This document shows positions 12,465 to 53,058 of a DNA stretch of 64,000 nucleotides, in pieces. The notes beneath the pieces were generated by a model. It made no database searches. It saw only the letters and a list, made by a program, of their open reading frames with translations, and had not been told where the DNA came from. The translations under genes and the position numbers were made by a program. The stretch lies in the NCBI RefSeq assembly GCF_003574315.2, contig NZ_AP025739.1, forward strand, positions 4,836,001 to 4,900,000, given 5' to 3'. The DNA comes from Capsulimonas corticalis. Its GTDB lineage: Bacteria > Armatimonadota > Armatimonadia > Armatimonadales > Capsulimonadaceae. The first letter of the stretch is position 1; every line of letters starts with the position of its first letter.

Positions 12465-12478
12465 GGGGCAGCGCCTTC

Positions 12479-13777: not shown

Positions 13778-13790
13778 TTGTCGTTCCGCC

Positions 13791-13820
13791 TTTACACTGC
13801 AATGGATTTTATCCCATAAT
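13791..13820 (+). promoter_or_regulatory. Probable promoter of the AraC regulator
   Basis: TTTACA (13791-13796), 18-nt spacer, CATAAT (13815-13820), in the 80-bp divergent gap between the GH4 operon and the AraC gene. The GH4-side promoter is not clear, which fits activator dependence. Confidence 0.5.
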
Positions 13821-13857
13821 AGCGTGTCTTTGTCGCCTTGTCTTGCCGGAAAATCGC

Positions 13858-38400: not shown

Positions 38401-38455
38401 TTGACAAAGATAAAGGCCAGTGTTATACTGGTCTCGGTTACGTAAACGTTTGCGT
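38401..38455 (+). promoter_or_regulatory. Promoter and operator of spherulin-like gene 1
   Basis: TTGACA (38401-38406), 17-nt spacer, TATACT (38424-38429), then CGTAAACGTTTGCG (38441-38454), a near-palindromic LacI-type operator 11 nt after the -10 box. The same design recurs at the pseudopilin promoters at 48.5 and 54.1 kb. Confidence 0.82.
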
Positions 38456-38531: not shown

Positions 38532-39491
38532 ATGAGGACGCAAAATATGAAAACGAAGAAGATTGCATTGGTCTGTTCGGCGCTTGCGTGTTTGAGCGTG
38601 GGAGCGCCCAAAGCGCACGCGGACGGCATGATCATTCCCGCCTACCTGCCGCTCACGGACACGACGGATTGGAACATTATCGCCAACGACGCCACGGTTC
38701 TAAAGAACGGCACGAATGCGCTCTACAAGGACTACTGGGTCACGGTCAACGGCGCGAACGGTCCTTACACCACCTCGGCCGACTGGACCACGGCGGCGAC
38801 TCGGTTCAATCCGATCCGCGCGAACGGCGGCAAAATCTTCGGCTACGTCCACACTTTGACCACGCCCACGAGCACGACGTTCCGATCGCTCTCGTCCGTG
38901 GAAGCGGATATCACCTCCTGGGTCGCGGGATACGCCAACATCGACGGAATCTGGATCGATGAGTATTATCCGCGCTATGAGATCGATTATGCGACCGGCG
39001 GAACCAGTCCGGCTTTCCCGAACGGCACGGCGCTCGCGCCCTACGATACGACCTACTTGAACGCGAACGGCACGTATAAGACGAACTATCCGCAGATCGA
39101 CCCTCCCGGCGGCTACTACACCCAGCTCACCGGCTGGATCCGGTCCACCTACCCGAAGCTGCGCATTATCGGCAACGCGGGCGGCAAGTTCTATTCGAAC
39201 CAAAAGAACTACACCGATCTCGTCGATGTGACTTGCAGCTACGAGGACAGCTACGCCAATGCGTCCGCAAGCTCCTGGGCCGCCCTGGCTCGCCAGAACA
39301 CCACGACGCCGAAGAAACAGCTCGTGCTGATCCACTCCAACACGACCGACCTGGCCGGCGCCATTAACGCGGCGATCAGCAACGGCTACAACTACTTCTA
39401 CACGACCAGCGGCGTGCTGTCGAACAATGCGTGGGGCTCCATCCCGTCGTACTTCGACACGGAAGTTTCGAGTATCGCGAACCACAGCTAG
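38532..39491 (+). CDS. Secreted spherulin-4 family protein 1 (GH135-like)
   Basis: A 319-residue exported protein, signal peptide ending KAHADG. The body matches the spherulation-specific family 4 pattern: IIPAYLPLTDTTDW, IFGYVHT, IDGIWIDEYYPR, LRIIGNAGG and FYTTSG along a TIM barrel. The fungal relative Sph3 founds GH135 and hydrolyses alpha-1,4-galactosaminan; bacterial members are largely uncharacterised. WIDEYY carries the likely acidic residues. ATG 38532 and the ATG at 38547 (with GAGG 9 nt before it) are both possible starts. It sits directly behind a LacI-type operator. Confidence 0.82.
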   Translation: MRTQNMKTKKIALVCSALACLSVGAPKAHADGMIIPAYLPLTDTTDWNIIANDATVLKNGTNALYKDYWVTVNGANGPYTTSADWTTAATRFNPIRANGGKIFGYVHTLTTPTSTTFRSLSSVEADITSWVAGYANIDGIWIDEYYPRYEIDYATGGTSPAFPNGTALAPYDTTYLNANGTYKTNYPQIDPPGGYYTQLTGWIRSTYPKLRIIGNAGGKFYSNQKNYTDLVDVTCSYEDSYANASASSWAALARQNTTTPKKQLVLIHSNTTDLAGAINAAISNGYNYFYTTSGVLSNNAWGSIPSYFDTEVSSIANHS

Positions 39492-39536
39492 TCTGTGCGC
39501 GCCGCGAGCTAGATCCATATTGAGACGGTTGTTCAC

Positions 39537-39575
39537 GGCCCCGTGGCGTTACTCACGGCGCGGGGCCGGCTTTAT
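39537..39575 (+). terminator. GC-rich hairpin after spherulin-like gene 1
   Basis: GGCCCCGTG (39537-39545) pairs with CACGG-CG-CGGGGCC (39554-39567), followed by GGCTTTATC. It overlaps the leader of the next gene, so it may attenuate. Confidence 0.5.
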
Positions 39576-39589
39576 CTGGGGAGAAGTCA

Positions 39590-40543
39590 ATGCAATATCC
39601 GTCCGTCTCGTTCAAAAATCCATCGGTATCCATCAAAATGAGCGTGAAAGTCACCTTGGGCCTCGCCGCCGCCCTCGCCTCCATTCTGAGCGCCGGCTCC
39701 GCGCAAGCCGCGAAGACCATGGGGTTCACTTACGAAGCGCCGGGCGATCCGATCTTTACATGGATCGGGAACGCCGGCTCGACCAAAGTCCCATACGTCA
39801 TTATCAATGCGCCCAATAACGGCAATCTGGTTTCGGGCGATCCGAACTACATCCCCACGAGCAGCTGGAGCCCCAGTCTCGCCTCCTGGGTCAGCCTCTC
39901 CCAGACCCTGCATAACCAGGGGATCAAGGTCATCTGCTATGTCGATTCGGCGTACACGAACCGCCCGGTCTGGCAAGTGGAGAATGACATGGCGCAGTAC
40001 TTGATCGACGGCTTCAAAGTCGATGGGTTCTTTGTCGACGATGTCGCCTGGGGATGGAGCGCCGCGTCGGGCGACGGCAGCGGAACCACGCATGGAGCGT
40101 GGTATACGAGCCTTTATAATTACGTCCATACGACGATGCCGACCTGGAATAACGCTAACTTCAGCACATCGCCCACGGTCATCAATAATCCCGGCAGCAT
40201 CGGCGATGTCTCCAATTGGATGGGCGCCTGCGACCTGAACGTGATCTTTGAAGGTCCTTACAATACATTCACCAATTCGAGCGGGACGACGTTCTCAGGC
40301 TACACCAGCTGGTCGCCTTCCGGGACGTGGGTGACGAGCTATCCGGCGTCACGCTTCATCAACCTGGTCACGAATGTCTCCAGCACATCGACCGTGAACT
40401 CGATCTTCAACGGCGCGGCCGCCAAAAACGTCGGCTACCTCTACACCACCAATGTCAGCTGCGATTGGCAGGCGGGCTATAATACCTACGGTACGGATCC
40501 CAGCCAATCGATTTGGAGCCAGGAGATCGCCAAATCGCAGTAA
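39590..40543 (+). CDS. Secreted spherulin-4 family protein 2 (GH135-like)
   Basis: A 317-residue exported protein, ATG after GGGGAGAAG, signal region ending AGSAQAA. Family marks are MGFTYEAPGDPIFTWIG, VPYVIINAPNNG, KVICYVDSAY, VDGFFVDDVAW (acidic pair), and YLYTTNVSCDW. It is 98 nt downstream of the first spherulin-like gene and differs considerably from it, so it is an older paralogue. Same likely activity on an alpha-galactosaminan-type or related polymer, by analogy only. Confidence 0.8.
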   Translation: MQYPSVSFKNPSVSIKMSVKVTLGLAAALASILSAGSAQAAKTMGFTYEAPGDPIFTWIGNAGSTKVPYVIINAPNNGNLVSGDPNYIPTSSWSPSLASWVSLSQTLHNQGIKVICYVDSAYTNRPVWQVENDMAQYLIDGFKVDGFFVDDVAWGWSAASGDGSGTTHGAWYTSLYNYVHTTMPTWNNANFSTSPTVINNPGSIGDVSNWMGACDLNVIFEGPYNTFTNSSGTTFSGYTSWSPSGTWVTSYPASRFINLVTNVSSTSTVNSIFNGAAAKNVGYLYTTNVSCDWQAGYNTYGTDPSQSIWSQEIAKSQ

Positions 40544-40671
40544 ACGCGTCCGATCGTTCGCACGACCATCCTCATGATCCCCGAGCTCGCAGAGTGGCGC
40601 GCCCGGGAATTTTTGATTCGTATCCTCCGCACAGTTCCCATCGACCGATCGTTCAAAGTAAGGCCGTGAAT

Positions 40672-43155
40672 ATGACGAACCATGCCATCTTTTCAAAACG
40701 CCTCGCGCGCGCGATGTTCTTCGCCGTTCTGAGCGTATTCTGTTTATTTTCTCTCGCCGGCCCGTCGCCGGCCGCCACAGCGGCGCTCCTTCCGAACGGC
40801 GGCTTCGAGCAGACGCAGTCGGCCCCGGGCGGCGCGTTCATCGCCTCCGCCTGGACCTCGTACGGCCAGGGCTATGCCATGGACGCGAAGGGAGGACGCC
40901 TTGGCGGCGCGGGCATCCGATGTGAAAATCACGATCTCAGCGCCGTCTCGGGAGCGTTCCAGACCGTGACGCTGAATCAGACGACGCCCGCGCCCGTCGT
41001 AATCTCGGGCTGGAGCAAAGCGGAAGGCGTGAGCGGCGCGCCCGGCGGCGACTACGCGCTGTATGTCGATCTGACATACGCCGATGGGACGAACCTCTGG
41101 GGGCAGATCTCCGAGTTCGAGACCGGAACGCATGGATGGAGCCGCCGCAGCATCACCTTCATGCCGCACAAGGCTTTGAAATCGCTGAACGTCTACGCCC
41201 TGTTTCGTTATCATACGGGCGTTGCCTGGTTCGACGATTTCGACGTCCATACTACGCCGATGGACAAGATGTTCGACAGCCAGGACCTGGCGCTTCCGAA
41301 AACGACCTCGACATCAGGCGGCTGGCTGATGCGGGACGCCGCGCATCGCGGCTCGGTTCTCGCCGTGACGCCGCATCAAACCCTCGCCGGGGTCGAACTG
41401 ACGGCGTCGTCCGCAACGGACAAGATCGTCACCGCGTCCTTTCAGAATACGGCGACGACGTCCGCCGCCGTCACGATCTATTACGCGCAGCGCTTAAAGG
41501 CGTCGGAGCCGGTGACGTGGTGGAACGACATGCGCGATCGCCAGACCGCCGCCGGCGGCGAGTACGCCAATCTGCAAAACGTCAATGTCGGGGTGGGGTA
41601 CGTGTCGCTTTATCCGTTTGGCTGCGTCACGACGGCGAAGGCGGGGTATGCGCTAGCGATCCCGCCCGCGCAGCAGCCGTGCGTCGCCCGGATTGAGTAC
41701 AATTCTCGCGCCAATCTCTTTTACGCCGCCTACGATATCGCGCTTGCTCCCAAGGGCGACAGCGCCGGGCATGACCGAGTCACGCTTCGCGTCGCTCGTT
41801 ACGCCGTCAGCCCCGAATGGGCATTCCGCGACGCGTCGGCGCGTTACTACGCGCTCTATCCCGAGGCGTTTCAGCGGCGCAACAAATCCGAGGGCGTCTG
41901 GATTCCGTTCACGGCGCCCCAATTTGTCGCCAACCCCAAAGACTTCCAGATCGCGTACCATGAGGGCGACAACAGCGTCGGCTCCGATCGGGCGCTGGGG
42001 ATCCTGAGTTTCCGTTATGTCGAGCCGATGACGTATTGGATGCCGATGAAGAAGGATGCGCCGCGCACGTACGCCGAAGCAATGGCGCAGGTGAAGCGCC
42101 AGGCCGCCGGTCCGGTGGACAACGCCGAACGCCGCCAATCGCAGGCGGTGCTGTCTTCGGGGACCAAAGATTCGCACGGCCTCTATAACGTCGCGTTCCG
42201 GGATACCCCCTGGTGCGATGGCGCTGTGTTCGTCCTCAACCCCAGCCCCGCGCTCCCACATGTTCCCGGCCTGTGGTCGAAGGCGATGCTGAACGCCGCC
42301 GGAAAGCCCGCGCTCGGCAAGGCGAACGAGCCGGACGGCGAGTATCTCGATTCGCTCGAAGCCTGGGCGGATACCCTCAATTATCAGCCCGCCACCCTGC
42401 GCGCCGCCTCGGGATCTCTGACATGGGATTCCAACGATTTCAAACCCGTTGTCCCGACCTGGTTCTCCGTTTACGACTCGACGCAGGCGCTCTCACAGGA
42501 TCTGCACCGCCATGGGAAACTGCTGATGGCGAACTCCACGCCCTTGCGCTTCCATCTCTTCGCGCCTCTTCTGGATGTGATCGGCACCGAAACCGATATG
42601 TTCCCAAGCGGCGCCTGGGAACCCGAACCCGACTCGCAGTTCAATCTGCGCCGGACGATGTGCTACCACAAACCTTATCTGATGCTCCTCAATACGGACT
42701 TCACTAAGATCGGCTCGGAGCAGATCGAACTCTACTTCCAGCGCTGCATGTTCTACGCCGTATTCCCCAGCATGTTCAGCGTCAACGCCGCCGATCATCC
42801 GTACTGGGAAAACGCCGCCCTCTACAACCGCGACCGGCCGCTGTTCCAGAAGTACATCCCGGTCATCTCCCATCTCTCACACGCCGGCTGGGAGCCGATT
42901 ACCTGGGCCCGCAGCAGCGACCAGGACGTCTGGGTGGAACGCTACGGCGCCAACTACCTCACCGTCCTGAACAGCCTAAAAACACCGCGCACCGTGACTG
43001 TCACCATCGACACAGACAAATTCGCCGGCGCCAAAGCCCTGCGTCTCCACGACGATATGACGGGTCAGAGCGTGACGGCGACGCGCGCTCCCGGGGGCAT
43101 AAGCGTCACGATGACGCTTGCGCCTTCTGAGACACGGGTGCTGGCGCTGCGCTAA
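40672..43155 (+). CDS. Large secreted protein, N-terminal CBM-like and putative glycosidase barrel
   Basis: An 827-residue exported protein, ATG 40672 with AAGG 8 nt upstream, signal peptide ending PSPAATA. Residues about 35-195 (LLPNGGFEQTQS, VAWFDDFDVHT) form a CBM4/9/22-like galactose-binding fold. The middle (about 300-700) has WIPFTAPQFVANPKDFQIAYHEGDN, EPDGEYLDSLEAWADT and IGTETDMFPS, acidic clusters resembling an unclassified TIM-barrel glycosidase. The C-terminal 90 residues look like a beta-sandwich (TVTIDTDKFAGAKALRL). I cannot assign a family. Placement between the spherulin-like genes and a sugar importer suggests a partner enzyme on the same polymer. Confidence 0.65.
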   Translation: MTNHAIFSKRLARAMFFAVLSVFCLFSLAGPSPAATAALLPNGGFEQTQSAPGGAFIASAWTSYGQGYAMDAKGGRLGGAGIRCENHDLSAVSGAFQTVTLNQTTPAPVVISGWSKAEGVSGAPGGDYALYVDLTYADGTNLWGQISEFETGTHGWSRRSITFMPHKALKSLNVYALFRYHTGVAWFDDFDVHTTPMDKMFDSQDLALPKTTSTSGGWLMRDAAHRGSVLAVTPHQTLAGVELTASSATDKIVTASFQNTATTSAAVTIYYAQRLKASEPVTWWNDMRDRQTAAGGEYANLQNVNVGVGYVSLYPFGCVTTAKAGYALAIPPAQQPCVARIEYNSRANLFYAAYDIALAPKGDSAGHDRVTLRVARYAVSPEWAFRDASARYYALYPEAFQRRNKSEGVWIPFTAPQFVANPKDFQIAYHEGDNSVGSDRALGILSFRYVEPMTYWMPMKKDAPRTYAEAMAQVKRQAAGPVDNAERRQSQAVLSSGTKDSHGLYNVAFRDTPWCDGAVFVLNPSPALPHVPGLWSKAMLNAAGKPALGKANEPDGEYLDSLEAWADTLNYQPATLRAASGSLTWDSNDFKPVVPTWFSVYDSTQALSQDLHRHGKLLMANSTPLRFHLFAPLLDVIGTETDMFPSGAWEPEPDSQFNLRRTMCYHKPYLMLLNTDFTKIGSEQIELYFQRCMFYAVFPSMFSVNAADHPYWENAALYNRDRPLFQKYIPVISHLSHAGWEPITWARSSDQDVWVERYGANYLTVLNSLKTPRTVTVTIDTDKFAGAKALRLHDDMTGQSVTATRAPGGISVTMTLAPSETRVLALR

Positions 43156-43186
43156 GTTGGGTTAGGATCGGAAAAGAGAAAACGGG

Positions 43187-43216
43187 CCGGGCATTCGATG
43201 AATGCCCGGCATTTTG
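43187..43216 (+). terminator. Terminator after the large secreted protein
   Basis: CCGGGCATTC (43187-43196) and GAATGCCCGG (43200-43209) form a perfect 10-bp stem with a 3-nt loop, followed by CATTTTGTG. Confidence 0.8.
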
Positions 43217-43273
43217 TGTGGGTGAGAGAGGATGCCCTTCAGGGCATGTGTTTGCATCGTGGGCGCCGAAGTT

Positions 43274-43333
43274 CCCGGTTATGAAACCCGGGCCTGGGAG
43301 ATGCTCCGCATCTAACCGTCCGTGCCGGACGGA
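43274..43333. repeat. Single unit of the 5.4-kb interspersed repeat
   Basis: CCCGGTTATGAAACCCGGG, then CTGGGAG, then CTAACCGTCCGTGCCGGACGGA, as in the left unit at 5486-5547; only the inner variable part differs. It lies in the convergent gap before the ABC transporter operon, which also has a CCCTCTCCC/GGGAGAGGG hairpin (about 43353-43380). Confidence 0.75.
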
Positions 43334-43395
43334 CAAATCACCGGACATCCCTCTCCCAGACGAAGCCGCCCGGGAGAGGGACCGAGGGAGAGGGT

Positions 43396-44325
43396 TTAGT
43401 TCTTCCCGCCAGTCGTCGCAATCCCCTGCACGAAGAGTTTTTGCGTGAAGAAGAATAGGACGATGATCGGCAGGACGAAGATTGTGGAGTCGGCCATCAG
43501 GGACGCCCACTCGCCGCCGTGTGTGGAAAGGAGCTGCTGCAATCCGTAGGCGAGGGTGTACCGGTTGGGATCGTTGATATAGATCAGCGGGCCGAGAAAG
43601 TCGTTCCAGGTTCCGAGGAACTGGAACAGCGCGCAGGTGGCGAGGGCCGGGCGTGACAATGGGAGCATGACTTTCCAGTAGATCTGCCACTCGCTGGCGC
43701 CGTCCAGGCGCGCGGCTTCCGCGAGCTCGTCGGGCAGTTTGCGGTAGAACTGGGTCAGCAGAAAGATATAGAACGGCGCGCCGCAGAAGGCGGGGACGAT
43801 CAGCGGCAAGTAGGTGCCGTACCAGTGCAGCGCGCGGAACAGGCCGAAGACCGGCACCATCGTCACCTGGGCGGGCAGAGCGATCGTGGAGATCATCAGG
43901 ATAAAGAGAAACGCTTTTCCTTTGAACTCCATCTTCGCGAAGCCGTATGCAACCAGGGAGCTGGACAGAACCGCGCCAATCACCGTGCAGGCGCAAAGGA
44001 ACAGCGTATTCTGAAAATAGATCCCAAACGGGACGGCTGAGAGCGCCTTGGGATAGTTGCTCCACACGGCCGGATGCGGGAGCAGACTGGACAGCGTGTT
44101 CGATGCGCTGTGGGCGAAGATCTGTGTGTCGCCCTTGAGCGATGTGGACACCATCCAGAAGAGCGGCAGCAGCGCTGGCAGGCACAGGAGCAGAAGCACC
44201 GCATGCGCGGCGATCTTCTGGCCGGTGGAAAGCCCTGTCAGCCGCCGCCGCCCACGGGCCACGATCGTTTGTTTGACGGACATCGTATTGGATGCGGGCG
44301 CCGTATTCACGGGAGCGTTATTCAT
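43396..44325 (-). CDS. CUT1 ABC sugar transporter permease (MalG type)
   Basis: A 309-residue inner-membrane permease with six predicted helices. The EAA loop reads LAEAARLDGASEWQIYWKVMLP, typical of MalG-like proteins, and LPLFWMVSTSLKGD marks the first helix and loop. The ATG at 44325 has AAAGGAG 10 nt upstream and overlaps the stop of the binding-protein gene by 8 nt; a longer frame upstream is less likely. It forms an importer with the MalF-type permease and lipoprotein. No ATPase gene is in the operon, so it probably uses a shared MsmK/UgpC-type ATPase. Confidence 0.92.
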   Translation of the reverse strand: MNNAPVNTAPASNTMSVKQTIVARGRRRLTGLSTGQKIAAHAVLLLLCLPALLPLFWMVSTSLKGDTQIFAHSASNTLSSLLPHPAVWSNYPKALSAVPFGIYFQNTLFLCACTVIGAVLSSSLVAYGFAKMEFKGKAFLFILMISTIALPAQVTMVPVFGLFRALHWYGTYLPLIVPAFCGAPFYIFLLTQFYRKLPDELAEAARLDGASEWQIYWKVMLPLSRPALATCALFQFLGTWNDFLGPLIYINDPNRYTLAYGLQQLLSTHGGEWASLMADSTIFVLPIIVLFFFTQKLFVQGIATTGGKN

Positions 44326-45682
44326 CGTAGCCAAGCTCCTTTCGGCGCGCTCGTTCGCGTGCGACATCGTGCTCCAGGCCGGTGAGCGCCGCGGCGGGCG
44401 ACAGTGAACCGCGTTCGGCCAGATCGTCCGCGCTGGAGATATGGTCCGCCAGATACATCTGGTAGGCGGTCGGAGGGATCGTGACCAGATTGGGACTGGC
44501 CGCGAGTGTCACAAACGCCTTGTACTGCGGATACTTTTTCAAATAGGCCTGATACGCCGGCGCCGCCAGCATTTGGTTTGAGCTTGGCAGCCAGCCGAAG
44601 CGCGTGTTGAACTCCGCCGCGCGGTTGTGATCGTTCAGACCCGCCCAGAACTTGATAAACTCCCAGGCGCCCTGGGCGTGCTTGGCGCCGGCGGGAATGG
44701 TCAGGAAGTTTGTGTTGGAGTAACTCGCGACGGCTTTGCCGCCGGCGGGCGGCGGCAGCAGGGCGACCTTGTATTTCAAATTCGGCGCGAACTTCGCGAG
44801 CTGCTGAACCCGCCACTCGCCATCCAGCGAGATACTCACGGAGCCGTCGATGAATGGCCACGACGCGCCGTTTTGCGATTTGAGGCTGGAGCTGTAACGC
44901 ATCACGCGGTCCATTCCGAGTTGATTCTTGGTGTCCACGAGATAAGTCAGCGCCTTCAAGTTCTGCGGCGTGTTCAGAAGGACTTGATGCGTGGCGGCGT
45001 CGTAGAAGCCGCCGCCAAACGAGGGCGCGTACTGGGTGAGGCCCGAGGGCAGGAAGCCGACGCGGGTTAAGTTGCCGCCTTCGAACTGGTCGAGCTTGTG
45101 TCCGACCGTGGTGAGCTCTTCCAGGGTGGTCGGGAACTTGTCCGGATCGAGGCCCGCCTTTTGAAAATCGTCCACGCGGTAGTAGCAGGCGTAGACGTCC
45201 ACCCCCATGACCATTCCGTAAAGATGCCCTTTGTACCAGCCGTTGTTATGGATGACGGGGTAGGTGTCGTGGTCGAAGTACTGGCGCTCCGCCGGCGTCA
45301 TCCGGGTCTCCAGCGGCTGCAAGATGCCGCCCTGCGACCAGGTGCTGATCGCCTGGGTCCACTGCGCCATCACGTCCGGCGGATTACCGCCCGCCACCGA
45401 AAGCAAAAACTTTGAATCGGCGCTGCCGTAGGGGATTTGCAGCGGGATGACTCTATACTTGGTCTGGCTGGCGTTGAACTCATCGACGACATGCTCCATG
45501 ACGGGCTGCCACTCGGCGCTCCACATATGCCAGTAGTAAACGGGCTCGCGCTGATCGGCTTGCGGGGCCGCCGTCGCCGAAAGAAGCGTCTCCGTCTTCG
45601 GCCCGCAGCCGGTTATCACGGAGCCGAGCGCTAAGATCATGGCGGCGCCAAGCGCTCCGGCTTTCGATACGGGAAATTTCAT
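44318..45682 (-). CDS. Extracellular sugar-binding lipoprotein (family 1 solute-binding protein)
   Basis: A 454-residue substrate-binding protein of the CUT1 type. The start at 45682 gives a signal peptide with a lipobox ITGC, so it is a lipoprotein. Family marks: HMWSAEWQPVMEHVVDEFNAS, GGNPPDVMAQW, GVDVYACYYRVDDFQKAGLDP, and the C-terminal AWEFIKFWAG region. It captures an oligosaccharide and passes it to the two permeases flanking it. The gene overlaps the downstream permease by 8 nt. Its neighbour, a spherulin-like secreted hydrolase, suggests that it takes up the products of that enzyme. Confidence 0.92.
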   Translation of the reverse strand: MKFPVSKAGALGAAMILALGSVITGCGPKTETLLSATAAPQADQREPVYYWHMWSAEWQPVMEHVVDEFNASQTKYRVIPLQIPYGSADSKFLLSVAGGNPPDVMAQWTQAISTWSQGGILQPLETRMTPAERQYFDHDTYPVIHNNGWYKGHLYGMVMGVDVYACYYRVDDFQKAGLDPDKFPTTLEELTTVGHKLDQFEGGNLTRVGFLPSGLTQYAPSFGGGFYDAATHQVLLNTPQNLKALTYLVDTKNQLGMDRVMRYSSSLKSQNGASWPFIDGSVSISLDGEWRVQQLAKFAPNLKYKVALLPPPAGGKAVASYSNTNFLTIPAGAKHAQGAWEFIKFWAGLNDHNRAAEFNTRFGWLPSSNQMLAAPAYQAYLKKYPQYKAFVTLAASPNLVTIPPTAYQMYLADHISSADDLAERGSLSPAAALTGLEHDVARERARRKELGYDE

Positions 45683-45707
45683 ATTCGCTCTCGGACTTTT
45701 GAGTCGC

Positions 45708-46574
45708 TTAACCCTCATAGTGCACCCATCGTTTCTGCGTCCAGAACGCCAGTCCCGTCAGCGACATCACGATGACAAACAGCACCCAGGCCATGGCGCT
45801 GGCGTAGCCCATATCCAGGTATCGCCACGCCCGTTCGAAGAGGTACAGCGCATAAAAGTGCGTGCTGTCCTCGGGGCCGCCCTGCGTCATGATGTACGCT
45901 TCGGTGAAGTACTGGAAGACTCCGATCAAGCCCATCACGAGATTGAAGAAGATCACCGGCGAGAGCATCGGCAGCGTGATATGGCGCAGGCGCTGCCATG
46001 GACTGGCGCCGTCGATTACGGCGGCTTCGTAAAGATAGGCCGGAATGTCCTTGAGGCCCGCGAGATAGATGACCATGCTGCCGCCGACGGCCCAGAGCGA
46101 CATCAGAACAAGGCTCGGGAGCGCCCAGGCGGAGCTTTGCAGCCAGGGTGGTCCGGTAACCCCCACCATCTTCAGCAGCTTGTTGATCAGGCCGATCTCC
46201 GGGTTGAACAGCCACATGAACACGGTGGATGTCGCGACGATGGGGACAATCGACGGGATATAGAAGATTGTCCGGTAAAACCCCATTCCCTTGATATTGA
46301 GGTTCAGCAGAAGCGCCAGCGCCACCCCGACCACGATGCCGACAGGAAGGGCGATGATCGCGAACTTGAACGTAACGCCCAGGGACGTCCAGAACAAGGG
46401 ATCGCCCGAGAAGAGCGCGCGGTAGTTCGCCATGCCGACCCACTTCGCGGGCGTCACGATGTTGTAGCGCGTGAAGGAGAGGTAGATGCTGCTCAGGAAC
46501 GGATACGCCGTAAATACGAGAAATCCCAGGATCCAGGGGGAGATGAAGGCGTAGCCCACCAAATTTTTTTTCAT
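45708..46574 (-). CDS. CUT1 ABC sugar transporter permease (MalF type)
   Basis: A 288-residue permease with six helices (MKKNLVGYAFISPWILGFLVFTAYP opens it). The EAA loop is YLYEAAVIDGASPWQRLRHITLPML. Length fits the MalF-like partner without the large MalF insertion. It lies 18 nt after the spherulin-like gene 3 and 25 nt before the binding protein, one operon with both. Confidence 0.93.
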   Translation of the reverse strand: MKKNLVGYAFISPWILGFLVFTAYPFLSSIYLSFTRYNIVTPAKWVGMANYRALFSGDPLFWTSLGVTFKFAIIALPVGIVVGVALALLLNLNIKGMGFYRTIFYIPSIVPIVATSTVFMWLFNPEIGLINKLLKMVGVTGPPWLQSSAWALPSLVLMSLWAVGGSMVIYLAGLKDIPAYLYEAAVIDGASPWQRLRHITLPMLSPVIFFNLVMGLIGVFQYFTEAYIMTQGGPEDSTHFYALYLFERAWRYLDMGYASAMAWVLFVIVMSLTGLAFWTQKRWVHYEG

Positions 46575-46592
46575 ATCTCTGTCGTCTTTACG

Positions 46593-47354
46593 TTAGCGTT
46601 TCGGCAGAGCCGCGATCTCCTGGCTCCAGACCGCGTCAGACGGGAGTTTGCCGTAAGGGTTAGGCAGAATTTCCGAAGTCAAAAACACCCATCCCGCGCC
46701 GCGCTTGCGGCTGAGCGCGATGACCTGCGCCAGCTGCGCGCCGGGCTTGACATCGTAAACGATGTGCCAGAAGCGTCGGGCGGGATACTTCGCGGTCCAG
46801 TCAGCCCCCACATATTTATTAACGTAAGCGTTTACGTCACTTTCGAAAGTCGCGATGACATCGCCGGCGGCCAGATAGCCCTCCAATGTCGGCGCGCCCG
46901 GATTGAGGACGACAATCGCTTTGGCGTTTGCGGCTTTGACGTCTTTATACAGGCTTCGATAGTAGGGGATATCGGGGGCGAGATTGCTGGTTTCGTCAAA
47001 AAAGATTCCATCGACATGATACCACTGGAAGAACTTGCCGACTTCGTCGAGCACTTCGCTCTTCGCGCGTTTGCCGTAGCTGGTATGGACGTACCCGATC
47101 ACCTGAACGCCCTTCGCCTTCGCTTCGCGCACTTGTTCGACGTATTGCGCATTGAGCGATGCGCCGGGACCGCTGTTCGGATTGATGATCGTCAGGCCCA
47201 CGGTCGGCGCGGCCTTTTCCGCCTGCGTCCAGAGAGGGCCAGGATAGAAATACGAAGGGATCGCCATGCGCTGGCTCTGTGCATGACACGCCGGAGCCAG
47301 CATCGCCCCGGCGAGCGCCGCCGTCATCATAAGGTGGTTTCGCAATTGCTTCAA
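46593..47354 (-). CDS. Secreted spherulin-4 family protein 3 (GH135-like)
   Basis: A 253-residue exported protein with a TTG start (an ATG 24 nt further in is an alternative) and signal peptide ending CHAQS. MAIPSYFYPGPLW, LTIINPNSGPG, GVQVIGYVHTSYG, VDGIFFDETSN and AIVVLNPGAP are clear spherulin-4 marks; the acidic DE in FFDE is the likely catalytic region. It heads the operon with the ABC importer genes. A LacI-type operator core lies within its coding sequence. Confidence 0.87.
   Translation of the reverse strand: MKQLRNHLMMTAALAGAMLAPACHAQSQRMAIPSYFYPGPLWTQAEKAAPTVGLTIINPNSGPGASLNAQYVEQVREAKAKGVQVIGYVHTSYGKRAKSEVLDEVGKFFQWYHVDGIFFDETSNLAPDIPYYRSLYKDVKAANAKAIVVLNPGAPTLEGYLAAGDVIATFESDVNAYVNKYVGADWTAKYPARRFWHIVYDVKPGAQLAQVIALSRKRGAGWVFLTSEILPNPYGKLPSDAVWSQEIAALPKR
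46823..46836. promoter_or_regulatory. Intragenic operator-like site in spherulin-like gene 3
   Basis: CGTAAGCGTTTACG matches the CGTAAACGTTTACG palindrome with one change, inside the coding sequence (codons for DVNAYV). It could be coincidence or a roadblock/auxiliary operator for the importer operon. Confidence 0.4.
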
Positions 47355-47416: not shown

Positions 47417-47443
47417 TTGGGCGGCGCTGTTCGCGCCGCCCAA
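47417..47443 (-). terminator. Hairpin after pseudopilin 3
   Basis: TTGGGCGGCGC (47417-47427) pairs perfectly with GCGCCGCCCAA (47433-47443), 5-nt loop. On the minus strand it follows the pseudopilin stop and precedes the spherulin-like gene; the T-tail is weak, so some read-through into the importer operon is possible. Confidence 0.65.
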
Positions 47444-47461: not shown

Positions 47462-48322
47462 TTACAGGCTGAAGGTAGCCGCGATGGAGTTATCCGCGCA
47501 TCCTGTTCCCGCCGCGAGCGGGACGCCCGGTCCGCCGCCGGTCACGGCGGTGGTATTGCAGTCGGTCTCGGTGGGGTTGGTGTAGCCGGCGGAAACCGCG
47601 CTGCCGCGCATCCACTTGGCGTGGAAGTCGGCGAGCAGGTAGTTGGCGCCATCGGTGTGCCGCCCGGTGGCCGCCGCGAAGCGGCTGTAGTCGCTGGAGG
47701 TCACGCCGTGCAGGTAGCCGGTCGCCATGGCGAGATGGGGAGGAACGTCGTAAGCGCCTCCGCCCGACACGACATACGAGTTGCCGCTTCCGCTCACGCC
47801 AAAGCCAGCCGGCGACGATCCGCCGGAGCCGGTGGTGTCGGCGGTCTCCGTGGAGATGTCGTATGTGTTGCCGGCGTTGTAGAAGTTGCTCTGCACTTCA
47901 AAGAGAAGCACCGTCTTGGCGGGAGACACATACTGGGCGATGCTGTAGCTGTCGACCGTGCTGCCGTCGGGATTGGTATTGTTGCTGTTGTAGGCGTACG
48001 AGCTATAGATTTTATTGCCGCTGGTGGTGTCGCTGGGGCACAGGAAGACCTGCTTGCTCTTAACATAGGCGTAGATCTGGCCGCCCCAGCCGTTGCCTCC
48101 GGGGTAATACCAGTTGACGCCATCGGGATTCTTCTCGTCGTTGTCCTGGCTGTACTGCATGAAGCCCAGTCCGAGCTGCTTCATGTTGGAAAGACACGAC
48201 GTCTGCCGGGCCTTCTCACGGGCCTTGGCGAAGACAGGGAAGAGGATGGCGGCGAGAATCGCAATGATGGCGATGACGACGAGAAGCTCAATGAGGGTAA
48301 AGCCGATTTTCTTGTTATTCAT
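47462..48322 (-). CDS. DUF1559 pseudopilin 3 (H-X9-DF variant)
   Basis: A 286-residue prepilin-like protein with AAGGAAA before the ATG. The leader MNNKKIG precedes [20 protein letters not shown]. Body: [21 protein letters not shown], then a serine/glycine-rich variable middle. The C-terminal signature reads [13 protein letters not shown], so the usual DG is DF. It closely resembles pseudopilin 4 (53082), including a shared C-terminal tail with two cysteines (TETDC, GTGCADN), and both are under the same operator type. It lies upstream of the spherulin/importer operon on the same strand. Confidence 0.9.
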
Positions 48323-48471: not shown

Positions 48472-48525
48472 TGCGTAAACGTTTCCGTTAAGACTCATTA
48501 TGCCATTGAAGCTCGCATTTGTCAA
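48472..48525 (-). promoter_or_regulatory. Promoter and operator of pseudopilin 3
   Basis: On the minus strand: TTGACA (48520-48525), 17-nt spacer, CATAAT (48497-48502), then the operator core CGTAAACGTTTCCG (48474-48487 as read on plus). The leader to the ATG is about 170 nt. Confidence 0.82.
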
Positions 48526-48618: not shown

Positions 48619-48634
48619 GCGTAAACGTTTACGT
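48619..48634. promoter_or_regulatory. Perfect CGTAAACGTTTACG operator before the isomerase gene
   Basis: GCGTAAACGTTTACGT with a perfect 14-bp palindromic core (48620-48633), the best copy in the window. It lies 55 nt upstream of the isomerase-like ATG and overlaps a probable -35 region (TTTACG, then 18 nt, TATATT at 48652-48657). Confidence 0.8.
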
Positions 48635-48687: not shown

Positions 48688-49542
48688 ATGCTGCTCAAAT
48701 CACTGAACTACTGGTCCATGCCCGGCGGTCTTGAAGGGACGCTTCCCGTCGAGACGTTTTTGACCCAGGCCAAGCACTATCGCTATGACGCCGTCGAGCT
48801 GTGCATCGCAAACGACGGAGCGCTCGGACTGGATACCGACGAAGCGCGATGCCGTGAAATCTTATCCGCGGCTCAGGCGGCGGGCGTGCAGGTCGCCAGC
48901 GTCGCGTCGGGCATCTACTGGGAGTACGCCCTCGCCAGCGACACCGAGACCGACCGGGCGCGCGCTGTGGAGGCGCTGCGCAAGATGATCCAGATCACAA
49001 GCTGGCTCGGATGCAAAACGCTGCTGACGATCCCCGGCGCGGTCGATGTCTTCTTCCTCCCCGATCAGCCCTCCCGCTCCTATGATGTCGTTTGGGACCG
49101 CTCGGTGGCGGGCCTCAAGCAAGTGCTCCCGCTGGCCGAGGAGCTGAGCGTCCGCCTGGGCATCGAGAACGTCTGGAACAAGTTCCTGACCAGCCCTCTG
49201 GAGATGGCCCGCTTCATCGACCAGTTCGAGAGCCCGGCGATCGGCGCGTATGTCGATGTCGCCAACATTCTTCCTTACGGTTACCCGGAGCAGTGGCTTC
49301 GGATCCTGGGCAAGCGTGTGGCCGGGGTGCACTTTAAAGATTTCCGGCGGGCCGTGGGCAACGGCGACGGCTTTGTCGACCTTCTGGAAGGGGACGTGAA
49401 CTGGCCGGAAGTGATGTCGGCGATCGCCGAGATCGGCTACGACGGCCCGGTGGCGGCGGAGATGATCCCGCAGTACCGTTTCTATCCCGAAGTGCGCATC
49501 GCCAACACCTCCAACGCCATGGACGCGATCCTGGGACGGTAG
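48688..49542 (+). CDS. Sugar phosphate isomerase/epimerase-like TIM barrel
   Basis: A 284-residue xylose-isomerase-like barrel with CGGAGAAC before its ATG. Metal-ligand motifs in order: GIENVWNKF (Glu), YVDVANI (Asp), GVHFKDF (His) and AAEMIPQY (Glu). Such proteins isomerise, epimerise or dehydrate sugars in inositol, ketose and related catabolic routes. It is cytoplasmic, under the strongest operator of the regulon, and divergent from pseudopilin 3. With the Gfo/Idh/MocA oxidoreductase it could form an oxidation-based route for the imported sugar (inference). Confidence 0.9.
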   Translation: MLLKSLNYWSMPGGLEGTLPVETFLTQAKHYRYDAVELCIANDGALGLDTDEARCREILSAAQAAGVQVASVASGIYWEYALASDTETDRARAVEALRKMIQITSWLGCKTLLTIPGAVDVFFLPDQPSRSYDVVWDRSVAGLKQVLPLAEELSVRLGIENVWNKFLTSPLEMARFIDQFESPAIGAYVDVANILPYGYPEQWLRILGKRVAGVHFKDFRRAVGNGDGFVDLLEGDVNWPEVMSAIAEIGYDGPVAAEMIPQYRFYPEVRIANTSNAMDAILGR

Positions 49543-49551
49543 TCGTTTCCT

Positions 49552-50547
49552 TTAGATCGGGGACGGGGCGCAGGATCGGCGGACGACGAGATGCGCCCCG
49601 CACACCTCCATGGCCGGCTCCGCATTGTCTTCGATCATTCCGATCAGCGCCCGGATCGCGGCGCGCGCGACTTGAGGAATATCGATGGCGATGGTCGTCA
49701 GCGGGGGACTGGCCAGCGCGGCGATCTCGACGTTGTCGTGTCCGATCACCGAGATCTCCTTGGGAACGGAGAGCCCGAGGCTGTTCGCCGCCTCGATCGC
49801 TCCGAACGCGAGCACATCGGTCCGCGCGAGCAGCGCCGTCGGCGGATTGTCCAGCTGAAGCAGTTTGTGCGTCGCCTCAAACCCGTCCCGGCTCGTCACC
49901 CCCGCTTCGATCGCCAGGGAGGGATCCCACGCCAGGCCCGCCTCCGCCATCAGCGCCGGCAGCTTGACCCGGATCCCGCTTTCCGGGAATCCGCTGCCGA
50001 TGTAGCCGACGCGCTTGTGACCGAGATTGGCGAAGTATTGCAGCGCTTTGCGAACTCCGGGAACGGTGTCGACACAGATGTGGGACGCCTTGGGGAAATC
50101 GGACTGATCCGGCCCGTCGATGATGACCGTCGGAGTACGCCAGTTCCGGGTCAGCGCCTTCATATCGTCCGCGTTCACTTCCGGACCGCTCATCAGGACG
50201 AGGCCGTCGACCATGCACATATCCGTCTCGGCGCCTTCAGGGCGCCGGCCCAGCCGAAGCAGCAGATTGTAGTTATGGGCGCGCGTCTCCGATTCGAGCG
50301 CGCGGGCCATCTCGATCAAGTAACGATCGGAAAGAACATCGGCGTTGTACGGACACTCCAGGCGGATCAAAAACGTCCGCCCGGTCACCAGTTGGTGGGC
50401 GCTGGCGTTGCGCGTGAAGCCCAGCTCCTGCGCCTTCTCCAGCACCATCTGCCGCGTCTTGGGGTTGATGTCCGGGCGATCGTTCAGCGCCCGCGACACC
50501 GTCCCGCTGCTGACGTTGATGCACTTTGCAAATTCGACGATATTCAT
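49552..50547 (-). CDS. LacI-family transcriptional regulator A
   Basis: A 331-residue LacI protein. The helix-turn-helix MNIVEFAKCINVSSGTVSRAL and hinge (NASAHQLVTGR) are followed by a sensor domain (about 60-330) with VGYIGSGFPESG and ISVIGHDNVEIAAL. It is convergent with the isomerase gene (9-nt gap) and divergent from LacI B by 139 bp. The two share the first 60 residues closely. Either or both may bind the CGTAAACGTTTACG operators of this region. Confidence 0.93.
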   Translation of the reverse strand: MNIVEFAKCINVSSGTVSRALNDRPDINPKTRQMVLEKAQELGFTRNASAHQLVTGRTFLIRLECPYNADVLSDRYLIEMARALESETRAHNYNLLLRLGRRPEGAETDMCMVDGLVLMSGPEVNADDMKALTRNWRTPTVIIDGPDQSDFPKASHICVDTVPGVRKALQYFANLGHKRVGYIGSGFPESGIRVKLPALMAEAGLAWDPSLAIEAGVTSRDGFEATHKLLQLDNPPTALLARTDVLAFGAIEAANSLGLSVPKEISVIGHDNVEIAALASPPLTTIAIDIPQVARAAIRALIGMIEDNAEPAMEVCGAHLVVRRSCAPSPI

Positions 50548-50686: not shown

Positions 50687-51670
50687 ATGAACATTATCGA
50701 ATTTGCTAAAGCCCTAAATCTGAGTATTGGGACCGTTTCGCGGGCGCTCAACGACCGCGCGCAAGTCAGTCCCAAAACGCGCCAGTTTGTGCTGGAAAAG
50801 GCCGAGGAGCTCGGTTACGTCCCCAACTCCAACGCGCGAAGCCTGGTCACGGGCCGAAACCTGATGATCCGGCTGGTCTGCTCGCACCTGCTGTCCGACT
50901 TGTATCTGGTGGAGCTGGCGCGCGGGGTGGAGGAGGTCGCCGGCGCCCACGGCTACGACCTGCTTCTGCACCTGGGAACGCGCCGCCCCAACGCGGCGAT
51001 GGGCCACGGCGTCGACGGTTTGATCGTGGTCGCCGGACAGGAAACCACCGTCGAGGACCTGCGCCGACTCACGCTGCACGGTCGCACGCCGACGGTGGTG
51101 ATTGCCGGTTCCGAGCCGCTGGACTTTCCGGAGGCGTCCTACGTTTGCCTGGACACCTTCCCGGGAGTGCGCGAGGCGCTCGCGAAGCTGGCCGCCCTCG
51201 GACATCGTCGCGTCGGCTACATCGGCAGCGGCCAGCCCGGCCATGTTTTGAGCGACGCCTTTCCGGCGCTGATGGCGGAGGCCGGTCTGACCTGGTATCC
51301 CGAGCTCGCGCGCGAAGCGGGCGTGACGCCGGATGACGGGCGGCTGGCCGCATTGGATCTGCTCACGCTCATGGCGCCGCCGACCGCGATCTTCGCGCGC
51401 ACCGATATCCTCGCCAGCGGCGCCGTTCAGGCGGTGACGCAGCTTGGGAAAACCGTACCGACCGACGTGTCCGTCATCGGCCACGACAACATCGAGGCCG
51501 CCGCGCTGGTCAATCCGCCGCTGACGACGGTCGCTATCAACATCCCGAACATCGCGGACCTTGCCGTGCGCTCGCTGCTCGCGATGATCGCCGACAAGGC
51601 CGCTCCAACCGTCCAGACCGTGGGCACGCACTTGATCGAACGCCGCTCCTGCGGTCCCGCTCCCGCCTAA
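50687..51670 (+). CDS. LacI-family transcriptional regulator B
   Basis: A 327-residue LacI protein, paralogous to the divergent regulator A. MNIIEFAKALNLSIGTVSRAL is the DNA-binding helix-turn-helix, NSNARSLVTGR the hinge, and the sensor has VGYIGSGQPG and VSVIGHDNIEAAAL. Near-identical recognition helices in A and B (SxGTVSRAL) imply overlapping operators, while different sensors imply different inducers. It ends 4 nt into the convergent oxidoreductase gene. Confidence 0.93.
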   Translation: MNIIEFAKALNLSIGTVSRALNDRAQVSPKTRQFVLEKAEELGYVPNSNARSLVTGRNLMIRLVCSHLLSDLYLVELARGVEEVAGAHGYDLLLHLGTRRPNAAMGHGVDGLIVVAGQETTVEDLRRLTLHGRTPTVVIAGSEPLDFPEASYVCLDTFPGVREALAKLAALGHRRVGYIGSGQPGHVLSDAFPALMAEAGLTWYPELAREAGVTPDDGRLAALDLLTLMAPPTAIFARTDILASGAVQAVTQLGKTVPTDVSVIGHDNIEAAALVNPPLTTVAINIPNIADLAVRSLLAMIADKAAPTVQTVGTHLIERRSCGPAPA

Positions 51671-52881
51671 CCTCTTCGGATCAGATCCCGCTCACGCAGC
51701 GTCTCCTGGACGATATTCTCGCTGGGCCACTGGATCTGCTGGAACTGATGAGTCGCCGCCGATTCCTTGGCCTTCAGACACATCAGCGTGTTCAGCAGAC
51801 CTTCCTCCATCGGCGAGACCGATTCCGATTCCCCGCGAATGACCGCCAGGAAATTGGTCGCGAGCACTTCGTCGCCGCCGCCGTGGATGGCGTTGTTGTC
51901 GAACGTATGCGTTTCGACATGGGGCGAATGGTGCTGAAAGACCTTCAGCTCATTGGTGAACCAATCGAATTCGATCGTTCCCTTGTATCCCAGCAGCGTC
52001 GCGCCGCGCTTCGCCGCCTTGTTGCGCGCGAAGAAGTTCTGGCTGTACACCACGTGCATGCCGGACGCGTACTGGATCAGCGCGCTGCCGGAGTCTTCAT
52101 TGCCGGTGTCCACGGCGAACGCGCACATCTCCTTGGCGGGCATATCGAGGGCCAGCGGCGCGGAGCGAGACGGGTGGTAGGGGCTCTCGAAACAGGTCTT
52201 CTTTTCCGCGCAGTCCATGCACTTCAGACCCGCCGGGTGAGTTCCCTTGAAGATCTGCTTGGACGTCATCGCGGAGATCGCGACCGGCCGATTGCCGGCG
52301 AGCAGAAAATTGATATAGTCGAAGTCGTGCGTGGCTTTTTGCAGGAACAGGCCCTGCGTCTCGGTTTCGTCCCGGTACCATGTCTGGAAGTAGACATTGC
52401 CGTATGGAACGTTGTTCCAGGCCTGAACATGCTCGACCGTCCCGATCTTGCCGGAATCGATGATCTCGCGGGCGAGCTGCGCCAGCGGCGAAAGCCGCAG
52501 CGGGAACGAAACGACCACGCGCGGAGACGAAGCGGCGCGCAGCGCCAGCAGATCCGGCATCGTGGTGGCGACCGGCTTCTCCAGGAAAAGCGCGATATCG
52601 CGGGCGAGCACCTTCACGGCCATCGCCGCGTGCAGGCTGCAGCGCGTGCCGATCACGACGCCGTCGAGCGCCTCGGCGTCGAGCATTTCGTCGGCGGTCT
52701 TGTAAAGATGGACGTCGTCGCCGACGCGGCCGTCGTCATGCAGCTTGGCGGCGATGCTGTCGCATTGCGGATCCGCGATCGCGGCAAGCGAAACATTGGG
52801 ATCCTGTGACCGCATAATGCGCACCATGTGACGGGCGCGCTCTCCATAACCGATGACGCCAAGGCGTATTGGGGAAGACAT
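51667..52881 (-). CDS. Gfo/Idh/MocA-family oxidoreductase with cysteine-rich insertion
   Basis: A 404-residue NAD(P)-dependent sugar dehydrogenase-like protein. The ATG at 52881 follows AGGAAGG; an upstream extension is unsupported. LGVIGYGERARHMV is the Rossmann motif and LFLEKPVATT holds the conserved EKP. Between barrel-like domain strands there is KCMDCAEKKTCFESPYHP, three closely spaced cysteines unusual for simple family members, possibly a metal site. It likely oxidises a sugar or inositol in the cytoplasm. It follows pseudopilin 4 by 200 nt on the same strand and is convergent with LacI B. Confidence 0.9.
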   Translation of the reverse strand: MSSPIRLGVIGYGERARHMVRIMRSQDPNVSLAAIADPQCDSIAAKLHDDGRVGDDVHLYKTADEMLDAEALDGVVIGTRCSLHAAMAVKVLARDIALFLEKPVATTMPDLLALRAASSPRVVVSFPLRLSPLAQLAREIIDSGKIGTVEHVQAWNNVPYGNVYFQTWYRDETETQGLFLQKATHDFDYINFLLAGNRPVAISAMTSKQIFKGTHPAGLKCMDCAEKKTCFESPYHPSRSAPLALDMPAKEMCAFAVDTGNEDSGSALIQYASGMHVVYSQNFFARNKAAKRGATLLGYKGTIEFDWFTNELKVFQHHSPHVETHTFDNNAIHGGGDEVLATNFLAVIRGESESVSPMEEGLLNTLMCLKAKESAATHQFQQIQWPSENIVQETLRERDLIRRG

Positions 52882-53058
52882 ATCTTTCCTTCCTGTCTCC
52901 TGAGTTGAATTGTGCGACGCGTCCATGCGCTTCCAGAGCGTTTCCGTCGAATTCAAGAGTGAGGGAGCCGCCGGATGGCCACGGCGCCGTAAGCGGCGTC
53001 GAAAGCCCGTCCGGCGGCTCCGTTTCGATACGAAATTCATCGCGTTGGATGAAGATTT

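Follow-up and report, generated by a model that had tools for sequence, protein, structure and literature searches.

The window, by which we mean the whole 64-kb stretch of DNA that was analysed, contains three spherulin-4-like (Sph) homologues within 9 kb at 38532–47354, and Table 1 lists these together with the genes and regulatory sites around them. PF12138 genes of any kind are found in only 8/251 genomes of the phylum. With three homologues inside 9 kb here, chance clustering is not a concern. sphA and sphB are located outside the sphC operon, on the other strand.

Table 1. Coordinates of genes and sites at the sph locus, numbered within the window
Feature	Position	Strand	Description
Promoter and operator	38401–38454	+	TTGACA-17-TATACT, then operator CGTAAACGTTTGCG (38441–38454); upstream of sphA
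SphA	38532–39491	+	predicted divergent secreted GH135-like enzyme; D143, E144, E238
SphB	39590–40543	+	predicted secreted GH135 enzyme (PF12138); D150-D151, E221
p826	40675–43155	+	CBM16-like module, beta-domain, TIM barrel, C-terminal beta-domain
MalG/UgpE-like permease	43396–44367	-	PF00528
Solute-binding lipoprotein (SBP)	44318–45718	-	PF13416/PF01547
UgpA/MalF-like permease	45708–46574	-	PF00528
SphC	46593–47354	-	predicted secreted GH135 enzyme, gene 1 of importer operon; D120, E121, E171
Operator-like site	46823–46836	.	CGTAAGCGTTTACG, within sphC
DUF1559 pseudopilin-like protein	47462–48322	-	possibly co-transcribed with sphC
Promoter with operator	48474–48525	-	TTGACA-17-CATAAT with operator CGTAAACGTTTCCG (48474–48487); upstream of DUF1559 gene and sphC operon
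Operator	48620–48633	.	perfect palindrome CGTAAACGTTTACG, before 48688 gene
Xylose-isomerase-like TIM barrel protein	48688–49542	+	PF01261
LacI-family regulator 1	49552–50547	-	
LacI-family regulator 2	50687–51670	+	78% identity with regulator beside p826 in genome G118
Gfo/Idh/MocA oxidoreductase	51667–52887	-	conserved beside sph cluster

Family, fold and active site of the Sph proteins

Fungal Sph3 (GH135) cleaves alpha-1,4-galactosaminan, a sticky biofilm polymer. The preliminary description took all three products for secreted proteins of the spherulin-4 type, and this assignment held. SphC and SphB match PF12138 directly (E 6.6e-44, 150.7 bits and E 2.1e-23, 83.5 bits, respectively; curated cut-off 30.2). 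SphA itself gives no Pfam match at E ≤ 10 and is placed through its paralogue, a profile and a model: a fourth genomic sph copy at 3,699,550, with 64% identity to SphA, matches PF12138 (3e-14, 53.5 bits), and a profile built from SphA, SphB, SphC and their relatives matches PDB Sph3 at 4e-27. The structure comparison, which was made with a model of SphA as one of the three proteins, returns Sph3 as the top PDB match (Z 23.0, rmsd 2.5, 232 residues). The runner-up is a GH191 endo-galactosaminidase at Z 15.0, 8 Z units under Sph3, and PelA (GH166) stands ~10 Z units under it; both were set aside as the family of SphA on this ranking. GH191, GH114 and GH166 are likewise TIM barrels with endo-alpha-galactosaminidase activities (PMC12054363), but their structural scores to SphA are well under that of Sph3, and none of the three Sph proteins matches the GH114 Pfam family at E ≤ 10.

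The catalytic residues of Sph3 are Asp166, Glu167 and Glu222 (PMC10485009), and these align, in that order, with the residues given for each protein in Table 1. All are retained apart from one conservative change in SphB, where Asp replaces Glu167. A Sec-type signal sequence can be read at the N-terminus of each of the three proteins. They resemble Aspergillus Sph3 (PDB 5c5g/5d6t) in predicted fold, catalytic Asp/Glu/Glu and secretion, and differ from it in the substitution in SphB and in the low identity of SphA, ~19% in the structural alignment. Together, sequence and model support GH135 membership and predicted secretion. The mutual divergence noticed earlier is borne out by pairwise identities of 21–35%: SphB and SphC share 25% (E 1e-16), SphA and SphC 33–35% across only 49 aa (E 0.002), and SphA and SphB 21% (E 0.32), with SphB on a long branch. 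A contig scan with SphC gave one relative only, and the family distribution was hence taken from the genome search.

The sphC operon and its conserved neighbours

Gene order and Pfam matches confirm that the third Sph gene heads an operon with two permeases and a binding lipoprotein. On the minus strand, sphC is followed after an 18-bp gap by the UgpA/MalF-like permease, the SBP, whose lipobox reads ITGC, and the MalG/UgpE-like permease. The SBP and two BPD_transp_1 permeases make up a CUT1 ABC importer like those of the Ugp, Mal and Gan type, and as in these a shared UgpC-type ATPase probably serves it. The sphC operon contains no ATPase gene; the single UgpC-like ATPase of the genome lies at 1.419 Mb and is 76% identical to the ATPase of the G118 operon. 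What sets this importer apart from the known CUT1 systems is its conserved coupling with a GH135 gene. Five related genomes, from two families, have the same arrangement sphC–permease–SBP–permease, and the SBP (E ≤ 1e-60) is present in 6/6 sampled genomes of the taxonomic order that carry an intact sphC and in 0/12 that do not. The linkage of GH135 genes to the importer is thus supported. The importer had been called dedicated, and this is correct insofar as its lineage follows SphC in 6/6 genomes; the genome nevertheless holds an Sph-less paralogue at 7.286 Mb, beside a GH31-like gene, and one presumably shared ATPase. More remote importers of the phylum also occur without Sph, and the sampled neighbours of these controls have no common theme. 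Outside the phylum, a micrococcal MAG carries a GH135 gene oriented divergently to an SBP-SIS-permease-permease-PfkB cluster. Our search of the open literature found no description of a GH135–importer operon.

In relatives, p826 belongs to the sph cluster and Gfo1-Gfo2 are mostly there too; the cluster includes an ATPase in two genomes (G118 and G079) and a NagB-like amino-sugar-phosphate deaminase in one (G118). The latter is nearer the glucosamine type by sequence score, with glucosamine-6-phosphate deaminase reaching up to 265 bits versus 121 bits for galactosamine-6-phosphate isomerase. p826 is a putative exo-glycosidase of an unnamed family, and its relatives occur in 111/251 genomes, far more than have Sph. 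Its residues D559 and E639 do not vary across 25 relatives. Its profile finds nothing significant among PDB sequences, and in the fold comparison many TIM-barrel glycosidases match its barrel equally well. The match to the Flavonifractor plautii alpha-galactosaminidase (Z 15.6–15.8, residues 209–826, rmsd ~5, 8–9% identity) covers most of the p826 model and is weak evidence. The listed matches give no support to GH109 for the cluster Gfo/Idh proteins: the closest of them with a name are inositol and other sugar dehydrogenases, and none is labelled as a GH109 enzyme. The 48688 gene has a 98.6% identical copy at 1.299 Mb. The locus yielded neither a GalNAc-6-phosphate deacetylase nor an Agd3-like enzyme.

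A LacI-type operator shared by sphA and the sphC operon

Seven copies of the LacI-type operator CGTAAACGTTTACG lie at 38.4–54.3 kb and none in the rest of the window; the two-strand matches in the window number 16 versus 0.83 expected. Genome-wide, 27 sites are found versus 5 for the control, and a promoter with at least 10/12 matches lies just upstream of 18/27 sites, as compared with 9/2000 random positions. At sphA and at DUF1559–sphC the operators are immediately 3' of near-consensus promoters, and the same pair occurs elsewhere in the genome at nagB (1.278 Mb), GH18-Gfo1-Gfo2, sphA2 and a GHL15 gene. The operator also precedes GH18 genes and one GH20 gene, and a second operator-bearing locus is rich in GH29 (three genes), GH18 and GH20, with a SASA esterase and GH2 as well. 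The palindromes have a central CG and lie at promoters, with LacI genes close by, as in a LacI regulon, and several LacI paralogues could bind them. In relatives, operators (≤2 mismatches) are absent from the sphC-type loci L018–L023 and found only near the sphA genes.

Substrate and significance

Having proposed a galactosaminogalactan-like substrate, the preliminary description stands as regards GH135 and the importer linkage; for the polymer itself the evidence is genomic context, namely Pel/Agd3 neighbours, amino-sugar deaminase/isomerase genes in the clusters of relatives, and the operator common to nagB, GH18 and sphA2. The Pel/Agd3 neighbours are those of a GH135 gene in two Actinomycetota, namely pelF, pelG and the gene for an Agd3-like deacetylase. 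The GH135 protein, ~45% identical to SphC in the catalytic domain, is the closest GH135 relative found outside the phylum, but it differs in its biosynthetic context, extra C-terminal domains and lack of an importer. This neighbourhood ties bacterial GH135 to Pel/GAG.

On the basis of these data we favour, with a probability of about 0.6, a catabolic locus for exogenous alpha-1,4-galactosaminan comprising GH135 enzymes, an importer and a LacI regulon. The data show the family, the fold, the active-site residues, the conservation of the operon and where operators and promoters lie, and from them we infer the enzymatic activity, the polymer, the transported species and the repressor. The target would be an exogenous polymer that contains GalNAc/GalN, for instance bacterial Pel or fungal galactosaminogalactan (GAG). 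SphA, SphB and SphC would cut it outside the cytoplasm as secreted, retaining GH135-type endo-hydrolases, and p826 may trim chain ends. Oligosaccharides would enter through the lipoprotein-dependent importer, powered by the shared UgpC/MsmK-like ATPase encoded elsewhere. The CGTAAACGTTTACG operators, placed shortly after strong promoters, would let LacI-type repressors keep both sphA and the DUF1559-sphC-importer operon silent, and the two would share a regulon with a hexosamine-6-phosphate deaminase, GH18 and oxidoreductases. Since three secreted Sph3 relatives, a sugar importer and a shared switch coincide, the organism probably eats galactosamine-based fungal or bacterial slime of the Sph3-substrate kind, and an amino-sugar polymer as the target is supported by the operator regulon and the Pel/Agd3 neighbours. 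The fuller proposal, a complete Pel/GAG-type alpha-galactosaminan utilisation system with GH135 paralogues, a co-evolved importer, a LacI-type regulon and p826 founding a new exo-alpha-galactosaminidase family, is tentative.

Several observations count against galactosaminan: the glucosamine-type deaminase, the second operator locus rich in GH29, GH18 and GH20, the Sph-less importer paralogue, the widespread p826 relatives, the position of sphA and sphB outside the sphC operon, the negative result at the locus for a GalNAc-6-phosphate deacetylase or Agd3-like enzyme, and the number of LacI paralogues that could bind the operator. The operator regulon may serve other amino-sugar glycans. The first three of these observations, together with the operators before nagB, GH18 and GH20 genes, would suit a broader diet of chitin- or N-glycan-like, fucosylated or mucin-like material, in which GH135 would be one of several tools, with GH18, GH20 and GH29, that a common repressor controls, and GlcNAc-containing or mixed oligosaccharides, not galactosaminan fragments, would pass through the importer. 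We regard this as unlikely, as sphC comes first in the importer gene set in six genomes of two families and the nearest GH135 relatives found beyond the phylum adjoin Pel/Agd3 genes.

Remodelling of the organism's own exopolysaccharide, with the importer recycling fragments, has precedents in Sph3 of Aspergillus and PelA of Pseudomonas, which work within biosynthetic clusters (PMC10485009, PMC12054363), and in the actinobacterial GH135 genes beside pelF and pelG. However, PelG is missing from all 251 phylum genomes, this one included, nothing noticed around the sph genes would encode a polymerase or exporter, and the sph genes carry a sugar-type LacI operator; we consider the idea quite improbable. 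Self-made Pel was rejected as the target on the missing PelG, and the target polymer is therefore probably foreign. There is similarly little to recommend a partly incidental proximity, with SphA and SphB as duplicated secreted enzymes aimed at fungal walls or the biofilm of competitors, while the importer would serve an unrelated sugar. The strand of sphA and sphB, the long branch and Asp substitution of SphB, and similar Sph-less importers elsewhere in the phylum would fit it, but the operator is common to sphA and the sphC operon, and G052, on one contig, and probably also G118 have sphA-type genes close to the sphC cluster.

The GH135 genes of this locus lie beside an importer, whereas fungal Sph3 belongs to a GAG synthesis cluster. 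Secreted prokaryotic GH135 enzymes of soil Gagatemarchaeaceae were earlier proposed to degrade fungal wall material, and the passages on these enzymes describe no importer operon or regulon (PMC10640624). Bacterial galactosaminidase families are widespread with few members characterised, and the reason for there being four of them in bacteria is stated to be open (PMC12054363). For testing, the locus supplies candidate enzymes, a solute-binding lipoprotein and a promoter–operator pair that should be inducible, and it is a possible source of biofilm-dispersing enzymes. Finally, galactosamine is reported to be integral to bacterial and fungal EPS (PMC11014887), and an organism that eats such polymers would therefore be a route for the turnover of biofilm matter.

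GH135 membership and active sites

The window belongs to a genome of 7.65 Mb on one contig, whose gene content suggests an Armatimonadota/Capsulimonas-like organism, and the open reading frames previously described as spherulin-4 genes (starting at 38532, 39590 and 46593) are present, each encoding a signal sequence. That assignment is borne out. SphC and SphB match Spherulin4 (PF12138) with 150.7 and 83.5 bits against a Pfam cut-off of 30.2. A direct Pfam search with SphA gave no PF12138 match; SphA is assigned through its 64% identical paralogue sphA2, which matches PF12138, and through its likeness to the fungal GH135 enzyme Sph3. A profile from an alignment of the Sph proteins and relatives matches Sph3 in the PDB (4e-27), and the AlphaFold model of SphA (pLDDT 76) scores Z 23.0 against Sph3 versus 15.0 against the GH191 endo-galactosaminidases, the next family. 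In the tree, SphA-type proteins are separate from a group with SphB, SphC, Pel-linked enzymes and fungal Sph3, where the SphB and Sph3 branches are long.

Sph3 residues were mapped by counting along the alignment (5d6t positions 134, 135 and 190; constant offset 32). The D-E and E motifs of the Sph proteins align with D166, E167 and E222, the Sph3 catalytic set (PMC10485009). The Glu167 position is Asp in SphB and in a micrococcal homologue (L017/L104). SphA D143 and E238 are among the columns invariant in all 15 aligned sequences. We conclude that the three proteins are genuine GH135 relatives that keep their active sites, SphB with its Asp, alongside a conserved importer partner. In large actinobacterial genomes (L105-L111), GH135-like proteins retain the first Asp and carry Arg or Gln at the Glu167 position; judged by sequence, their catalytic competence is doubtful.

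The sphC-importer operon and p826

As the preliminary description held, sphC heads an operon with two permeases and a binding lipoprotein (SBP), in the order sphC, permF, SBP, permG, with an 18-bp gap first and overlaps after. The same order recurs in five genomes (G118, G134, G112, G144 and G079; two families, one order), that of G144 being pieced from two short contigs. The gene for p826 precedes the set in all five, and two Gfo/Idh genes precede it in all except G079. The G118 operon extends into a UgpC-like ATPase, also present in the G079 cluster, and a NagB-type deaminase. The G052 version is decayed, and its deaminase is 87% identical; here (L027:9672-11736) sphC, SBP and permG are fragments adjoining an intact nagB, and the region is either a decaying cluster or an assembly join. 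A GC-rich hairpin lacking a T-run, between DUF1559 and sphC, is perhaps an RNA stabiliser or attenuator inside the operon.

The importer had been called dedicated, which holds in part. Among sampled genomes of the order, the SBP (E<=1e-60) is found in 6/6 with intact sphC versus 0/12 without PF12138 (Fisher 5e-5, unadjusted, for genomes that are related), but in the importer tree the cluster of Sph-linked SBPs also takes in one paralogue without Sph, encoded at 7.286 Mb in this genome. More distant importers within the phylum have varied neighbours.

p826 (826 residues) has no match in Pfam or NCBIfam, and 111 of the 251 phylum genomes encode relatives. In its model (pLDDT 88) the N-terminal part is a CBM16-like module (Z 17), and the TIM barrel with its flanking beta domains is similar to many glycosidases; residues 209-826 align with the Flavonifractor plautii alpha-galactosaminidase (Z 15.8), which we take to be GH36. 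Invariant D559, E562, D634 and E639 are candidate catalytic residues. p826 and its relatives (L038-L067) probably form an unnamed glycoside hydrolase family, and p826 is the best candidate for the pathway's exo-enzyme, but relatives this widespread show that the family is not confined to this substrate.

A predicted operator and its likely regulon

A search for LacI operators turned up the palindrome CGTAAACGTTTACG. At up to two mismatches the window has 16 two-strand matches versus 0.83 expected, all within 38.3-54.3 kb; seven window sites are left at no more than one mismatch from CGYAAACGTTTRCG. Across the whole genome the count is 27, compared with 5 when the reversed control is used; a second locus (1.278-1.299 Mb) accounts for nine of the 27. 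A sigma-70-type promoter (at least 10/12) lies directly upstream of the operator at 18/27 sites, versus 9/2000 random window positions. Operator-like palindromes also lie upstream of sphA genes in G118, G052 and G134. Together with the promoter-operator pairs tabulated below, these palindromes place sphA and the importer side in one probable regulon with amino-sugar catabolism. Since the HTH region is common to several LacI paralogues, several are candidates for binding the operator.

DUF1559 pseudopilin-like genes repeatedly lie beside sugar-utilisation clusters (window 32464, 47462 and 53082; L025, L087, L129), several with the same operator-promoter pair. The XylI-like gene of the second locus is 98.6% identical to window 48688-49542, which at the sequence level suggests recent duplication or gene conversion.

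Locations of the sph, importer, operator-linked and related features
Feature	Location	Remarks
sphA	38532..39491 (+)	promoter-operator pair upstream
sphB	39590..40543 (+)	
p826	40675..43155 (+)	
permG	43396..44367 (-)	
SBP	44318..45718 (-)	
permF	45708..46574 (-)	
sphC	46593..47354 (-)	
Hairpin	47418-47440	
DUF1559	47462..48322 (-)	promoter-operator pair upstream of DUF1559-sphC
Adjacent genes	window 10744-14245	BadF-type kinase-like, second NagB-type (PF01182) and GH4-like genes side by side; 25-35 kb from sph genes
sphA2	3.70 Mb	promoter-operator pair upstream
nagB	1.278 Mb	promoter-operator pair upstream; 60% identical to G118 operon deaminase
GH18-Gfo1-Gfo2 operon		promoter-operator pair upstream; Gfo genes 70-73% identical to those of relatives' sph operons
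Second locus	G000:C1:1277500-1304000 (L128, L129)	nagB, GH18, GH20-like, three GH29, SASA esterase, GHL6, Gfo1/Gfo2, XylI-like gene
GHL15 protein, 722 residues	G000:C1:6551100-6553300 (L028:9131-11299)	promoter-operator pair near start/upstream; weak Spherulin4 similarity
Importer paralogue	G000:C1:7285300-7288600 (L087)	SBP 64% identical; adjoins GH31-like gene, DUF4832 protein, beta-helix protein
pelF, pelG, Agd3-like, GH135 set	L102:3321-10078; L103:3447-10139	

The likely substrate

Three lines of context point to an amino-sugar polymer as substrate: deaminase/isomerase genes, the operator regulon and a Pel/Agd3 neighbourhood. The sph clusters of two phyla hold such genes, NagB-type in G118 and G052, and SIS-type plus PfkB in a micrococcal MAG. 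Two Actinomycetota (L102, L103) carry pelF (DUF3492), pelG (PF16933) and an Agd3 deacetylase + CBM87 gene, then a convergent GH135 gene whose product is about 45% identical to SphC. PelG is part of the Pel machinery. Agd3 and Sph3 are partners within the fungal galactosaminogalactan (GAG) cluster (PMC10485009). The neighbourhood therefore unites the GAG and Pel sets, and offers a bacterial parallel to the GAG genes of fungi. No PelG was found among the 251 phylum genomes, and this speaks for a foreign polymer as the target of the Sph proteins here.

Counting against strict galactosamine specificity, the cluster deaminase is closer to the glucosamine type, and GH29, GH18 and GH20 genes abound at the second locus. 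The earlier proposal that a galactosaminogalactan-like polymer is degraded and imported is partly supported, as regards the substrate by context. Degradation and import of an exogenous alpha-galactosaminan is the most likely function, with a probability of about 0.6. Secreted GH135 proteins of prokaryotes have already been connected with the breakdown of fungal walls (PMC10640624), so what is new here is the GH135-importer operon, together with the regulon and the link to Pel and Agd3.
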